Source of the DNA: Treponema sp.
GTDB lineage: Bacteria; Spirochaetota; Spirochaetia; Treponematales; Treponemataceae
Reading direction: 5' to 3'
DNA: 43,059 nt
NCBI GenBank assembly: GCA_017616165.1
Contig: JAFZYR010000028.1
Location: 1 to 43,059, forward strand
Under the pieces are notes generated by a model. That model saw nothing but the letters and a program-made list of their open reading frames with translations, did not search any database and was not told the DNA's origin. The translations under genes and the position numbers were made by a program. Below, piece by piece: positions 10,682-39,526 of this stretch (positions are counted from its first letter, which is position 1; every line of letters begins with the position of its first letter).

Positions 10682-11190
10682 AAATCTTTGAGTCTTTTAG
10701 TACATTCATCCGCGCCGTTTTTGTTGTTCAGCTGGGTATAGGTGTCTCTAAGATTGTAAAGCGCGTCTGCATAATACGGATTAATGCTTATTGCGTGCTC
10801 AAAGCTTTCGCTTGCAAGCTCGTATTTTTCCATATTAAAAAAGGCAACTCCGGTAAGGTTCCAGAATGCAGGATTTTCAGGCCAGTTGTCTAAGCCCTCC
10901 TGACTGTACAAAAGTGAACCCTCGTAATCCTCCTGCTGAATGCACATGGTGCTAAGCGTTTCCAGTACATCCTGGCGGTCCGGGGCAATCTGGTGTGCCT
11001 TTTCCAGCGAGGCGCGGGCGTTTGCAAGGTCGCCTGAGTCGCGGTAGGTAATGCCCAGGTTATACCACAAAAGGTAATTGTTGCGTTCTATGATGATGGC
11101 GCGTTTAAAACAGGCAATGGCTTCGTTGTATTCTCCACCGGAAGCGAGTATTATAGCCTGATTATTAAGCTTGTCTGGTCTCTCTCTCAT
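10678..11190 (-). CDS. Small tetratricopeptide-repeat protein
   Basis: A 170-residue protein made almost entirely of about four TPR helical hairpins (for example NNYLLWYNLGITYRDSG, NPAFWNLTGVAFFNMEKYE, NPYYADALYNLRDTY). There is no signal peptide, so it is probably a cytoplasmic scaffold for protein-protein contacts; the partner is unknown. Its ATG overlaps the stop of the polyprenyl synthase in an ATGA junction, so the two are translationally coupled. Confidence 0.85.
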   Translation of the reverse strand: MRERPDKLNNQAIILASGGEYNEAIACFKRAIIIERNNYLLWYNLGITYRDSGDLANARASLEKAHQIAPDRQDVLETLSTMCIQQEDYEGSLLYSQEGLDNWPENPAFWNLTGVAFFNMEKYELASESFEHAISINPYYADALYNLRDTYTQLNNKNGADECTKRLKDF

Positions 11191-12272
11191 CTGAATTTCT
11201 CCGGTATCATTGAATTAAAAAGCTCTGTAATGAGCGGCTCCCTTGCAAACTGTGCGCAGTTGGTGGCAATAAGGCGTTTTCCTTCCTCTGCGGCGTCTTT
11301 TATGCAGGAGCTGGTGTTTAAAAGTGCTATACATTCTTCTACGGCAGGGGAGTCTATTCCTTCCTTGCCTGCTATTTCCATAAGGCTGCAGATTTTGTCC
11401 TTGTCCTGCGGTTTTTGCTGTAGGTGCAGCAGTACCGGGAGTGATTTTTTGCCTTCTACAATGTCGTCGCCCCTTTTTTTGCCCGGGTTTCCGTCTGTAA
11501 GGTTTATTACATCATCAATAATTTGAAAGCCAACACCTATCTGGGCGGCAATCTGTCCGTACTTTTCTGCGGTCTTGTGGTCTGCGCCTCCTGCTATAAA
11601 GCCAATCTTGGCGGCAAGGCTTGCAAGGGTTCCGGTTTTGTTTTGAACCATGGCGCGGTATTCGTCCATTGTCGGGAAAATTTGTTTGTTTCGGTGCCAG
11701 TAAATGTCCATGGCCTGTCCAAGATGAAGACGCCTAAGCTCGTTTGTATAAAGCTTGTAAAAGGTAAGGCGCTGCTGGTCGGTCAGGTCAAGCTGGTTTA
11801 AGCACACTGGGGCTTCAAAATAAAGCCAGCTTGCGGCGTTTAAAGCTGTGTCCAGTCCGTAGGTAATGTGGGCTGCAGGCTTTCCGCGGCGCAGGTCGGC
11901 ACTGTCTTCTATGTCGTCGTGAATAAGGCTTGCGGTATGAACAAATTCTACAAGCGGGGTAAGCGCATAGGCTGTATCCAGCGGGAGCGGGGCAGTGGAG
12001 CTGTCATTGTGGGTTGTGCGTGTGTCATCGTCAAGCTTTTGGGCCAGCTGGTAACAAAGGATTAAAAAAAGCGGGCGCCAGCGTTTTCCGCCAAGATCTA
12101 TGAGCGTTTTATTTGGTTCTATGAGGTTTTGAATAAAGCTTTTGTTTGAATTGATTGCGTCGCTAAGTGGGCCAAAGCTGCTGTCCTGCCAGGCGGTGGA
12201 AAAATCCATTTTGAGTGCCTGGTCCAGCTTTTGTTCTATTTTTTCCATGTGGGCGCGTAAGTTTTCATTCAT
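11187..12272 (-). CDS. Polyprenyl diphosphate synthase (trans-isoprenyl synthase family)
   Basis: About 361 residues. It shows GGKRWRP near 61-67, the first aspartate-rich motif DDIED at 119-123 followed by DLRRGKPAAH, and the second aspartate-rich region IIDDVINLTDG followed by GKKRGDDIVEGKKSLPVL. These enzymes chain isopentenyl diphosphate units onto an allylic primer using Mg2+. The second motif reads DDVIN instead of DDxxD, a conservative loss of the third Asp. Chain length cannot be read reliably. I place the start at 12272: an open frame extends to 12380, but that extension runs into the DnaA-box region and is not family-like. A TATACT box ends 7 bases before this ATG, again predicting a leaderless mRNA. 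Confidence 0.9.
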   Translation of the reverse strand: MNENLRAHMEKIEQKLDQALKMDFSTAWQDSSFGPLSDAINSNKSFIQNLIEPNKTLIDLGGKRWRPLFLILCYQLAQKLDDDTRTTHNDSSTAPLPLDTAYALTPLVEFVHTASLIHDDIEDSADLRRGKPAAHITYGLDTALNAASWLYFEAPVCLNQLDLTDQQRLTFYKLYTNELRRLHLGQAMDIYWHRNKQIFPTMDEYRAMVQNKTGTLASLAAKIGFIAGGADHKTAEKYGQIAAQIGVGFQIIDDVINLTDGNPGKKRGDDIVEGKKSLPVLLHLQQKPQDKDKICSLMEIAGKEGIDSPAVEECIALLNTSSCIKDAAEEGKRLIATNCAQFAREPLITELFNSMIPEKFR

Positions 12273-12279
12273 ATATTTA

Positions 12280-12285
12280 AGTATA
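12280..12285 (-). promoter_or_regulatory. -10 box of the polyprenyl synthase gene, predicted leaderless
   Basis: TATACT on the minus strand (12285-12280), followed by the 7 bases TAAATAT and the ATG at 12272. No good -35 element is visible at the right distance; the upstream sequence is A/T-rich. Confidence 0.45.
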
Positions 12286-12455
12286 GCTAAAAACGGTAAT
12301 TTTTTAAAGGAAAAAAATATGCACTTATACACACAGCTTGTACACGGGTTATACACAAGATATCCACATTCTGTGTACACTATATAGGGGTTTCACCGGA
12401 ATTCCATACAAATATGCTATACATTTTAGTTTTGTACTTTTTACAAAAAGTGTTT

Positions 12456-12482
12456 CTAAATCCTTGTATTATAAGGATTTAG
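12456..12482. repeat. Perfect inverted repeat within the DnaA-box region
   Basis: CTAAATCCTT (12456-12465) and AAGGATTTAG (12473-12482) are exact inverted complements with a 7-base loop. A shorter palindrome ACTTTTT-AC-AAAAAGT lies just upstream at 12437-12452. Neither is followed by a clean T-run. Confidence 0.6.
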
Positions 12483-12551
12483 AGCGTTTTTGACGGGCGA
12501 GCGGTGTTTTTTACTACATATTTATGTATTTGAGCACCCTGGGTTAAAAAT

Positions 12552-12588
12552 AAAAAACTTTGTTTTTATAAAAAAAACAAAGTTTTTT
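12552..12588. terminator. A/T-rich hairpin, possible bidirectional terminator or unwinding element
   Basis: The arms AAAAACTTTGTTTTT and AAAAACAAAGTTTTT are inverted complements around a short ATAAA centre. It lies just beside the right DnaA-box pair and downstream of the minus-strand STAS gene, so it could terminate that gene or provide the easily melted DNA expected beside DnaA boxes. Confidence 0.55.
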
Positions 12589-12633
12589 GCACAGTTATCC
12601 ACAAGTTATACACATTGAACTTGTAGGTAAATA

Positions 12634-13185
12634 TTAGCCCAGAGAAACTTCTCCGCGGTCGTTGATTGCAAGAATTGACTTGCAGCCTGAACAGCGGAAG
12701 CGGCCCGACTTTGTGGCACGGAGCTTTTTGCTGCAAACAGGACAATCGATAATAAGAGGGAATACAGAAGTAGTAGTAGTACCGCCTTCAGAGAAGAACG
12801 AAACTGCCTCTTCTGTAGAGTTTTTAATATTAAAGAACTGAGAGAAGCCGAGCAACTGGAATACTTCGTAAACCTTTGGCTGGATTTCAAGAAGAACTAC
12901 GTCTCCGCCCTTTGGCTTTACCATTTTAAGGAATACGGTAAAGGATCCGATACCGGTAGAAGAAACATAATTAAGTGCGGCGCAGTTGAATACAAGATTA
13001 ACAAAGCCTGCTTCTATTACTTGTGTTATTTTTTTCTGGAAGTAAGTGGAGTTGTAAGTATCGATATAGCCGGTAAGATAAACGATGAGTCCGTTAGGTA
13101 CACCAAAGGATTTGTCAAGTCTGATTTGAAGGCTGTCGTCCTTATCAACATCAAATCCAGGTATTACCGCGTTGTTATTTTCCAT
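12634..13185 (-). CDS. STAS-domain anti-sigma-factor antagonist with C-terminal zinc ribbon
   Basis: A protein of about 183 residues. Residues ~15-125 form a STAS domain of the SpoIIAA/RsbV type, which binds or releases a partner protein depending on phosphorylation. At the usual phospho-serine position the sequence reads VSSTGIGSF, so the acceptor would be Thr (or a neighbouring Ser). The C-terminus adds a zinc ribbon CPVCSKK...CSGC, an unusual fusion suggesting nucleic-acid or protein contact. I chose ATG 13185, with GGAG about 12 bases upstream; an upstream in-frame GTG at 13197 would overlap that site. It borders the DnaA-box cluster at its 3' end. Confidence 0.85.
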   Translation of the reverse strand: MENNNAVIPGFDVDKDDSLQIRLDKSFGVPNGLIVYLTGYIDTYNSTYFQKKITQVIEAGFVNLVFNCAALNYVSSTGIGSFTVFLKMVKPKGGDVVLLEIQPKVYEVFQLLGFSQFFNIKNSTEEAVSFFSEGGTTTTSVFPLIIDCPVCSKKLRATKSGRFRCSGCKSILAINDRGEVSLG

Positions 13186-36244: not shown

Positions 36245-39200
36245 ATGAACAACAAGTATCTGACTTTTTTTAGAAGCCTGTTATTTTCCGGACTTATTAT
36301 TGTTTTGCTTACTTTTCTTACAGGCTGCGAAAACTTTCTTAAGGGCAATGATGTTAAATCACAATTAGAAGAATTAATTGCCTACGAAAACGCCCTTACA
36401 CATCAGCTTATAGTAAGGTCTGACCCTGCAATGGGTTCCTTCCTTTCTGAAGGCGAAAAAGACTGCAAGCTTGGCTTTACAACCACGCTGCAGTTTACAA
36501 TGAATACCGAAGACTACGTTTTCCACGGCTTTGAAGCAGTCTGCGTAAATGACCCGTCCCAAAGCCGCGCCGACTGTGTAGACTTTACAATAAACCAGGC
36601 CGAAAGCGACCCCTCCAAAGGCATTTACAAGGTTACCGTAAAGTTGCTCAAGGCTGCCGATGACATTTTAATCAGACCGGTGTGCGTGCTTATTCCTGCA
36701 GTGGTGTACTATGAGCCGGAGTCTAAGTCACCGAATTATTTGAATACTCCAATAGTTATTCATTTTAATATGCCTATGGATCCTCTTAATGTATTGGAAA
36801 AAGATAATCAGGGAAATTATAAAAACATTTTTATTGAATACTTAGGAGAAAATCTTTTAGGAAAGTTTGAAAAACCAAGTTTTGATTCTTCAAATACTAA
36901 TCTTTTTCTTTATCCAAAAGGTGGAGAGTTAAAAGAATTTTTTAAAGATAAAGAAACTGCATATTATGAAATAGATATTACACTGAAGAATATTTTTGTT
37001 TTGCAGAATGTAGATGGAAAAGATTATAATCTTTCTCTCAAAGGTAATAATAATTCTGATTATTCATTTATTGTAAGGTACAGATATGCCACAGAAGATA
37101 GTAAACCAGTTCAATATATATTTAAAGCAACAAGACACGAAATTTCTATAGATTCAATAGATGAGCTGGAAGAAGATGATGAATTTAAATATGGTAGCCT
37201 CAATCTTTCTATGTCATTAAATGCAGACGAAGTTATTATTGCAAGAGAAGATCAGTTGCATAACAGAGCAGGAGAAGTAATCTATCTTTATGGAGTATTT
37301 TATGATGCAGATAGTGGAATAAGAGCTGTAAGAATAAACGAGCATCATACAAAAGAACCATTTTATGCAGAAGATGTAAATATTAACGGAAAGGATGATA
37401 AAACAACTTACTATTACATAAATGATAAGAATCAAGCAGTACAATGGGTTGATTATGGAGATGGCTATGTAACATTCTGCATAAAACATTATATGAAATC
37501 ACAAAATGGAGCCGTTAATATAACAGTTGATGTTTTAGATGGAGCCGGTAATACTCCTGAAGAAAAAGATGCTTATGATCATTCAATTAATAATGCATTT
37601 ACAGTAATAAAACGAGATTACAAAAACTTCTTCAAACCAGATACATTTTATTACAGGCTTTATAATGGTGGTTTTGATAGAAATAATGAGTGGTCTGACT
37701 ACATAAGTAATAAATATACTGAAAATGAAATTACGTTTGATAGTACTGAATACAATAATCATTTAAAGAAACTTTATTTGAATAGTTTAAATGATGTATG
37801 GGGGCTTTGTTCACTATATGGGTGGACAACAATTCCTATTGAAAGCATGACTATTCAATGTAGATATATAAATAAATATAATAAGGAAATTACCGCGAAT
37901 TTTGTGCCTGTTGATATAGAAAGCGAAGAACATTATTATTGGGAGCTCGATCTTGATGTAGAAAAGATAGGCGGAACTGAACTTACTTTAATTGTTGCAG
38001 ATGATATGGGAAACAGAGCAGAAGTTAAATACACAATTCCAGAATCAAGTTCTATATCCTATAAAAAAGATGGTAACAATGTAAGTTTCTTTTCTTCGAG
38101 CGGATATCCTATTAATGGTTTACTTCAGGTTCGCGATGAGGCTTATGCAAAGACGATTTTTTCTGATAATATAGATATTGCTCAAAATAATAATTACAAG
38201 ATATGTCCGAGATTTAATCTTTATAACGGATGTTTTTATACAGAAATATCAGATTTAGAGATTAATTCAAATTCGGTGTCGGATTCTTTAGAATATTCAA
38301 TTCAAAACTGTCAGGTACATATTTCTGAATCGCCAAGAGATGGTTCTCGTGTACTTGATGTAACCGTAACTATTGATGAAGATGCATGGAAAAAATTTGA
38401 TGCAATATATGCAGATTTTTCGAATTATTATTATATTCCAGAAGTTGATGGAGAGTATAGCAGAAAACATTTTGTCAAAGGAGATAATTCTATAAAAGTT
38501 AAAATTTTTGATAATTATCTATATGCAGAAGAATATACCTGTACTGTTTATGGTATAAAAAATAACCGTGTTTCACCAGGCAAAGAAGTAAAATTTGGTC
38601 CTGTTACCGGTATTCAATATGATAATACACCACCAGATATGGATTTTACACTTCCATTTTATTCTAAACCATATGTTGAAATTACTATTACTGATGAACA
38701 ATCTGGTCCTGACCATGGAATAATTTCAATAAATGGATATGAACATTATTTTGAAGGGGATTCCATAAAGATTTATGACTGGGATATAAACTTGGATTCT
38801 GATTCTCGGTTACATATTATTGCAGAAACTTATGACAAAGCCGGTAATAAGGGAAAAGGCAGTGCTGCTACAGGTATCCAATGGTTTCCGGTAACTTCTA
38901 TAGAAAAACAGAGTACTTTGTGGAATTTGTTTATAACTTCAAAAACAACTGCAGGTTTTACAAAACAATATCTCTCTAATGGAACAATTACAAGTTATTA
39001 TCTAAACACAGATGGTACATGGACTAAATGTGATGATCAAAAATTGGGTACTAAAATTTCAGAAAGAGAAATAATTAATGGACTTTATACAATAAAAGCA
39101 AGCAATCTGACACTTCCTGCAGATAAATTTGTCAAGATTATACACCATGTTCCTACCGGAAACTATTCATACCCAACATATTTTTACACAGGCACAATAG

Positions 39201-39526
39201 ATCCACAGGTGAATACTGGTGCGTATGATATGGTTTTACCGTATAGTACGTCTACATCAAAGGTAATTATTTCAAGTGATGGTCCTGTTTTTGTTCATAC
39301 TGCTGTAACTGACAGAGGTTATGAGGTATGTAAAAACTGGGATGTTAAAGAATGGGAATTTTATAAAAAATCTATAGGCGATAAATATATTGATTTTACA
39401 ACTAACAATGCCCAGCAAAAATACGAAATTCCAATCTCTGAAATTACCAGCGGTCAGTGCTATGTTGTAATCGCTCACTTTACCAACGGTAAAACAGAAA
39501 TGAGCGATGTTTTCCAGATGCCGTAA
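36245..39526 (+). CDS. Very large lipoprotein with Ig-like domains and an AT-rich interior
   Basis: 1093 residues. The signal peptide ends in the lipobox FLTGC (Cys28). About residues 160-185 resemble an SbsA/Big_5-type Ig-like domain (NTPIVIHFNMPMDPLNVL). The rest is beta-rich with repeated segments such as VDVLDGAGNTPEEKDAYDHS, LTLIVADDMGNRAE and AETYDKAGNKGKGS, typical of bacterial Ig-like surface repeats. Composition changes sharply: by hand, 36541-36600 is about 53% G+C, 36781-36840 about 22%, 37621-37680 about 30%, and 39421-39480 about 40%. In the interior arginine is mostly AGA and ATA is common, unlike neighbours. The ribosome binding site is CAGGAGA. Its function is not known; surface display is likely. 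Confidence 0.85.
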   Translation: MNNKYLTFFRSLLFSGLIIVLLTFLTGCENFLKGNDVKSQLEELIAYENALTHQLIVRSDPAMGSFLSEGEKDCKLGFTTTLQFTMNTEDYVFHGFEAVCVNDPSQSRADCVDFTINQAESDPSKGIYKVTVKLLKAADDILIRPVCVLIPAVVYYEPESKSPNYLNTPIVIHFNMPMDPLNVLEKDNQGNYKNIFIEYLGENLLGKFEKPSFDSSNTNLFLYPKGGELKEFFKDKETAYYEIDITLKNIFVLQNVDGKDYNLSLKGNNNSDYSFIVRYRYATEDSKPVQYIFKATRHEISIDSIDELEEDDEFKYGSLNLSMSLNADEVIIAREDQLHNRAGEVIYLYGVFYDADSGIRAVRINEHHTKEPFYAEDVNINGKDDKTTYYYINDKNQAVQWVDYGDGYVTFCIKHYMKSQNGAVNITVDVLDGAGNTPEEKDAYDHSINNAFTVIKRDYKNFFKPDTFYYRLYNGGFDRNNEWSDYISNKYTENEITFDSTEYNNHLKKLYLNSLNDVWGLCSLYGWTTIPIESMTIQCRYINKYNKEITANFVPVDIESEEHYYWELDLDVEKIGGTELTLIVADDMGNRAEVKYTIPESSSISYKKDGNNVSFFSSSGYPINGLLQVRDEAYAKTIFSDNIDIAQNNNYKICPRFNLYNGCFYTEISDLEINSNSVSDSLEYSIQNCQVHISESPRDGSRVLDVTVTIDEDAWKKFDAIYADFSNYYYIPEVDGEYSRKHFVKGDNSIKVKIFDNYLYAEEYTCTVYGIKNNRVSPGKEVKFGPVTGIQYDNTPPDMDFTLPFYSKPYVEITITDEQSGPDHGIISINGYEHYFEGDSIKIYDWDINLDSDSRLHIIAETYDKAGNKGKGSAATGIQWFPVTSIEKQSTLWNLFITSKTTAGFTKQYLSNGTITSYYLNTDGTWTKCDDQKLGTKISEREIINGLYTIKASNLTLPADKFVKIIHHVPTGNYSYPTYFYTGTIDPQVNTGAYDMVLPYSTSTSKVIISSDGPVFVHTAVTDRGYEVCKNWDVKEWEFYKKSIGDKYIDFTTNNAQQKYEIPISEITSGQCYVVIAHFTNGKTEMSDVFQMP

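Follow-up and report, generated by a model that had tools for sequence, protein, structure and literature searches.

Two groups of DnaA boxes set around a central palindrome form a conserved element away from the replication origin, and we predict with moderate confidence that, through arrays bridged at the palindrome, it exerts remote control on the active DnaA that reaches a distant origin. The element lies at 12273-12633 of the window, by which we mean the whole analysed stretch of 43,059 nt; this is contig C101 of a 148-contig, 2.62 Mb MAG of a gut treponeme of the T. bryantii group, and the named relatives of this source genome are Treponema, T. bryantii XBD1002 among them. In the proposed mechanism DnaA would load onto both phased box arrays, and a putative dimeric architectural protein would bind the palindrome and bend or bridge the DNA, so that the arrays would meet. 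The looped complex might then speed DnaA-ATP hydrolysis in a datA-like manner, exchange ADP for ATP as DARS sites do, or store DnaA like the B. subtilis clusters, and the site would thereby set the amount of active DnaA at the distant origin.

Box arrays and palindrome in the gap

The gap is bounded by the 3' end of a gene for a STAS-domain protein of the anti-sigma-factor-antagonist type (12634-13185, minus strand; PF01740 E 2e-21, TIGR00377 above cut-off) and by the start of its left neighbour, a polyprenyl (isoprenoid) synthase gene (11187-12272, minus strand; PF00348 E 2.5e-58). Five exact TTWTNCACA boxes were found in it, all on the plus strand: TTATACACA at 12325-12333 and again at 12349-12357 in the left group, and TTTTGCACA at 12585-12593, TTATCCACA at 12595-12603 and TTATACACA at 12606-12614 in the right group. 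Besides, the left group holds two imperfect plus-strand boxes, the weak TTGTACACG at 12338-12346, with two mismatches to TTWTNCACA and 13 bp from the previous box, and ATATCCACA at 12360-12368 with one mismatch. With these counted, the boxes are stepped by 13, 11 and 11 bp on the left and by 10 and 11 bp on the right, and AT content is 71% in the stretch that separates the groups as compared to 57% in the window. The two groups, their uniform orientation and regular spacing and the AT-rich stretch between them, all described in an earlier sequence-only reading of this DNA, are thus confirmed. Exact TTATNCACA occurs on the plus strand at 12325, 12349, 12595 and 12606 and nowhere else in the 43 kb window. 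Four copies anywhere in the window were reached by 8 of 100 shuffles; genome-wide there are 122 copies in 2.62 Mb, and by a Poisson estimate four within 290 bp are expected approximately 4.5e-5 times.

Inverted repeats, noted by the same reading as perfect, are also present. One is a hairpin at 12552-12588 on the minus strand, in the sense of the STAS gene, with perfect 16-nt arms (12552-12567 and 12573-12588) and a folding energy of -14 kcal/mol (z -4.2); from its sequence it looks like the terminator of the STAS gene. Such terminators follow the STAS gene in 49 of 56 related sequences (reversed control 9, antisense 5), and we did not count them as evidence for the element because loci without it have them too. 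The other is a 29-bp dyad at 12455-12483, with 14-nt arms that are 93% complementary and a 25-bp core TAAATCCTTGTATTATAAGGATTTA at 12457-12481 (PWM score 32.6). Apart from the boxes, no part of the element is more conserved than this dyad, a point that the earlier reading had not made. The plus-strand GTTTCAC at 12390-12396, read in the sequence, is half of a parS-like site; in 56 stretches of 620 bp downstream of the STAS gene this half-site was counted 43 times against 3.5-4.3 expected, an approximately ten-fold enrichment spread over 23 of the 56. A search of Rfam gave no match above gathering at the element.

The palindrome lies midway between the groups, some ten helical turns away from the majority of boxes, with box centres mostly at about -106, -115 and +109/110, +120/121, +130 and +141 from its own centre. 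On either side the phase statistic is highest for a period of 10.5-10.75 bp (R 0.70-0.73, against 0.38-0.40 at 9 and 13 bp), a broad peak (on the right side 0.70 at 10.0 and 0.71 at 11.0) that is partly owed to the 11-bp steps within the groups. Most boxes are thus in helical phase with the palindrome, and same-face spacing around a central site may be a requirement of a looped complex. Five exact boxes within 290 bp could instead serve as a passive sink that titrates DnaA as in the B. subtilis clusters, the palindrome being an unrelated regulator's site, and DnaA-box clusters outside oriC are on record (PMC5043019, PMC5010248); however, neither the phasing to the palindrome nor its conserved midway position would be needed by a pure sink, and we consider this explanation unlikely.

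Conservation and neighbouring genes

Relatives were gathered via the synthase and via the STAS gene, and 20 further ones by place. The 53 STAS-downstream sequences, our own included, were reduced to 39 distinct ones by identical first 250 bp, and 17 of the 20 later sequences were added (the other 3, too short, were excluded) to give 56. Same-strand box pairs 165-330 bp apart were present downstream of the STAS gene in 44 of the 56, our own included (0-1 in shuffles), and in 41 the palindrome stands between boxes of the same strand (0/56 in each of 20 shuffle rounds), counts that are not independent events as the 56 sequences are kin. Among the remaining 15, five have the palindrome and boxes otherwise arranged, three have boxes without the palindrome and seven are boxless; judging from these sequences, some species do without the element. 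Under a strict search without mismatch, for which the match in the window spans 12349-12593, the full pattern was found in 24 of 200 genomes of the genus at one locus each, overlaps merged (control 0), and was absent from the other 176; across the family it was found in 26 of 274 genomes and 3 of 20 genera (reversed control 0). The STAS gene adjoins all 25 inspected of these 26 family matches (G218 was left out), and three genera have the element behind the 3' end of this gene.

As the gap precedes the synthase gene, it might be a promoter or operator through which DnaA controls the synthase or the STAS gene. PMC9879097 describes DnaA as a transcription factor in other bacteria, and a promoter-like site was detected at 12308-12280, a weak signal since the scanned 2.5 kb contain 8 sites of this type and shuffles 5.2. 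Several arrangements argue against such control, which we regard as improbable: the element lies 3' of the STAS gene, the synthase is displaced in L035 (3.5 kb away), and in G018, a member of another genus with a 58% identical STAS protein, the element is followed by a different gene. Moreover, the boxes lie mostly on the opposite strand relative to the STAS gene in 5 of the 56 sequences, and copies stand beside unrelated genes. The gene next to the element is also another one in L394, and the STAS gene and element are flipped together relative to the synthase in L038 (whose sequence equals L133). The same architecture was found in G068, G111, G126 and G152, where the flanks that were retrieved contain no STAS gene, and in G068 and G152 the stretches taken from the STAS gene contain neither boxes nor palindrome. 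By all these arrangements the element is independent of its neighbour genes.

Further copies of the palindrome

A PWM for the palindrome was built from 23 element sites (consensus TAATTCTTTATAATATAAAGAATTA), which makes the scores of elements partly circular; among 17 later sequences outside the training set, a score above 11 was reached by 11 and missed by 6. On the 265-kb T. bryantii contig the element is the single match above 11. With one mismatch allowed, the pattern was found in 86 of 118 genomes of the genus, with one match seen in the reversed control (G084). Copies scoring above 17 lie on the dnaN side at 14 of 38 dnaA loci (one place counted twice), with two more upstream of dnaA, and nine lie at the 3' end of gyrA. 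Others adjoin plasmid-type parA genes, and in four genomes (L288, L293, L326 and L336) a copy precedes a sigma-70 family gene by 87-138 bp. Dispersed palindromic repeats of about 40 bp containing the 25-mer core were observed in G108 and G115 (L289, L304, L318, L320, L331-L333) and are possibly a REP-like family of one lineage. The palindrome is not replication-specific, as indicated by its sigma-70, integrase and dispersed-repeat copies.

The integrase-linked copies lie between tRNA 3' ends and tyrosine recombinase genes, at 38 bp from the tRNA (Arg, Phe, Gly), at 25 bp (Met, in two genomes) or at 3-6 bp (Met, Pro, Leu, Val). The tRNA-linked loci (L207, L211, L212, L216, L218, L220, L307, L317, L324, L325 and L352) mostly adjoin recombinases of different subfamilies, with weak recombinase calls for two of them, a fragment at tRNA-Phe without a Pfam match and one at tRNA-Gly below cut-off; an exception is L337, a weak site (score 17.8) 56 bp from tRNA-Asp at which no integrase was found. 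The window itself has a second copy of this kind at 2009-2033, 38 bp past the 3' end of a tRNA-Arg gene (2072-2148) and before a tyrosine recombinase gene (482-1843); this is probably where an integrated island that extends off the left end of the window is attached.

Such placement, together with the copies beside plasmid-type parA, could suggest that the palindrome is the core or an arm site of a tyrosine recombinase and the element a relic of a mobile replicon. We hold this recombination or attachment site to be quite improbable, since the element in the window has no integrase or tRNA beside it and is kept by the STAS gene in three genera, and since eight tRNA- or integrase-linked copies have no DnaA box within 400 bp. 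In the mechanism that we prefer, the putative palindrome protein would rather be common to origin and integrase attachment regions.

That the palindrome is a transcription terminator hairpin with an incidental box pattern is very improbable: it is frequently placed behind the 3' ends of genes (gyrA, tRNAs), and in the window a terminator scan picks it out on either strand, but the would-be loop is conserved, a T or A tract occurs only 27 times at 126 palindrome sites, and the arms show no covariation at pairs 7/19, 8/18 and 10/16 in 117 distinct 25-mers, three of the four variable pairs, the fourth, 4/22, being above shuffles (0.51 vs 0.31). As these three pairs do not covary, the palindrome reads as a protein dyad and not as an RNA hairpin. 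Known binding sites were also compared with it. For a LexA-type SOS box, the palindromes whose surroundings were read (G142, G103 and our own) are not at recA or lexA by gene recognition. For a dif site, the copies nearest the skew maximum of G142 (1.67 and 1.71 Mb) are one integrase-linked and one poorly symmetric. By eye, no match was seen between the palindrome core and the EbfC site GTnAC as given in PMC9879097.

The chromosomal origin and known DnaA-control loci

The sequence-only reading had taken the gap for a candidate replication origin and proposed the position of the GC-skew minimum as a check, and this main interpretation is not supported. The cumulative skew of the window shows a local maximum near the element, and in relatives the minima lie at dnaA/gyrA. 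In G142 (43 sampled 20-kb stretches) the minimum falls at the ends of the 3,431,497-bp contig, which carry dnaA, gyrA, four TTATCCACA boxes and six TGTTTCACATGAAAC sites, and the maximum at 1.80-1.86 Mb, while the element (2,568,364-2,568,586) sits on the falling slope. For T. bryantii XBD1002, of which 385 kb out of about 3,200 kb were covered, the skew has its minimum at 185-190 kb of C11, with dnaA at 189.4 kb, and the 265-kb contig that carries its element shows no minimum. In G115 (16 stretches) the skew climbs over approximately the first 1.3 Mb of the contig and declines beyond; around the element, at 389 kb, it stays close to zero and shows no minimum. The origin region of G142 at 3424001-3424706 (L192) contains six TGTTTCACATGAAAC and one TTTCACGTGAAA.

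As the same reading had remarked, no dnaA or dnaN adjoins the element; both are on another contig of the source genome, C125, where the gap between them holds, in order, boxes, the palindrome (C125:2929-2953), a further box and TATTATTACTACTAC, a DnaA-trio-like array, named by a term that the title of PMC8235120 uses, which we take to be the unwinding module. Arrays of four such repeats were found at 22 of 37 dnaA loci, the other 15 being without an array by the definition used and some of them incomplete, and in none of the 56 STAS-downstream sequences (2 of 56 when three repeats sufficed). Because it is without the trio-like array, the element resembles an origin-like DnaA platform minus the unwinding part.

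The GC skew in three relatives, the missing array and the genome's own dnaA locus, with its boxes, palindrome and array, rule out the element as chromosomal oriC; in spite of the two box groups in an AT-rich gap and the palindrome shared with the dnaA-dnaN gap, an origin, or a second one firing under some conditions, is highly implausible. Gene direction had been offered in support of an origin: the bias towards the plus strand on the right holds, with 19 of 23 ORFs of at least 100 aa in place of the 24 genes originally counted, and orientation on the left is mixed as reported (4 of 11 such ORFs on the plus strand). The fallback offered alongside, a site titrating or otherwise handling DnaA, agrees with the evidence.

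Another box cluster of the source genome, on its contig C53 (L194, 1262-1473), has four TTATCCACA, two per strand and facing each other; it was rejected as the origin as it adjoins a relaxase gene, and it probably sits on a mobilisable element. In four genomes that consist of one or two contigs, the distance of the element from the presumed origin, taken as contig start or end, amounts to 10.6, 14.0, 14.6 and 25.2% of genome length, one of the four (G110) being without the full box-palindrome arrangement; G018 (41.9%) was left out as the first 3 kb of its contig have no dnaA match. As these distances vary, the position of the element is not fixed.

The predicted remote control has counterparts in other bacteria. 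In E. coli, datA stimulates DnaA-ATP hydrolysis, and DARS1 and DARS2, each built on three core DnaA boxes whose order is fixed, bring about ADP release from DnaA. Integrase attachment sites also use IHF and Fis, a role that matches the tRNA-integrase copies of the palindrome described here. According to PMC4585315 and PMC10380432, datA requires an IHF site flanked by correctly spaced boxes and DARS2 requires IHF and Fis; moving datA or DARS alters their activity (PMC5010248).

Like datA, the element is a non-origin box cluster with boxes flanking a central site for a second protein, and spacing is important in datA and conserved in the element; a terminator or attenuator is also near datA (PMC10950094). 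Unlike datA, it has a 25-bp palindrome, groups approximately 200-250 bp apart and a variable distance from the presumed origin, and the IHF consensus WATCAANNNNTTR is absent from 12273-12633 and present in 2 of the 56 STAS-downstream stretches of 620 bp. With DARS1 and DARS2 it shares a non-coding box cluster far from oriC, and DARS2 likewise needs nucleoid proteins (IHF, Fis); the palindrome differs in being longer than a Fis site. The DnaA-box clusters of B. subtilis, reportedly described by Okumura et al. in 2012, are similar in having multiple boxes away from oriC, in a distant phylum, and differ from the element, whose two arrays around a palindrome were located by the strict search at a single place per genome. 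The treponeme's own dnaA-dnaN origin shares the boxes and the palindrome with the element, which differs from it in having arrays on both sides of the palindrome and no trio-like array, whereas at the origin a box, the array and dnaN follow. Among the three modes of action, we lean towards datA-like negative control over DARS-like and storage modes because datA likewise has boxes flanking a bending-protein site with spacing important (PMC4585315).

No datA- or DARS-type locus of a spirochaete was found described in the open-licence literature. Tentatively, the element may be a treponeme DnaA-control locus of a new plan, with two arrays about ten turns from a palindrome whose putative architectural protein would also serve oriC, tRNA-integrase regions and plasmid partition loci, a possible spirochaete counterpart of IHF and Fis tying replication timing to mobile-element integration. 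If this is real, remote DnaA control through a non-coding site with an architectural protein at its centre either evolved or was retained in a lineage far from the proteobacteria. The 25-bp palindrome offers a defined bait for finding its protein, which apparently serves origins and mobile-element attachment regions.

Apart from these, an ORF of 1093 aa was observed at 36245-39526 in the lowest-GC stretch of the window (approximately 31% at 37001-39000 as compared to 43% overall), a region that was possibly acquired.
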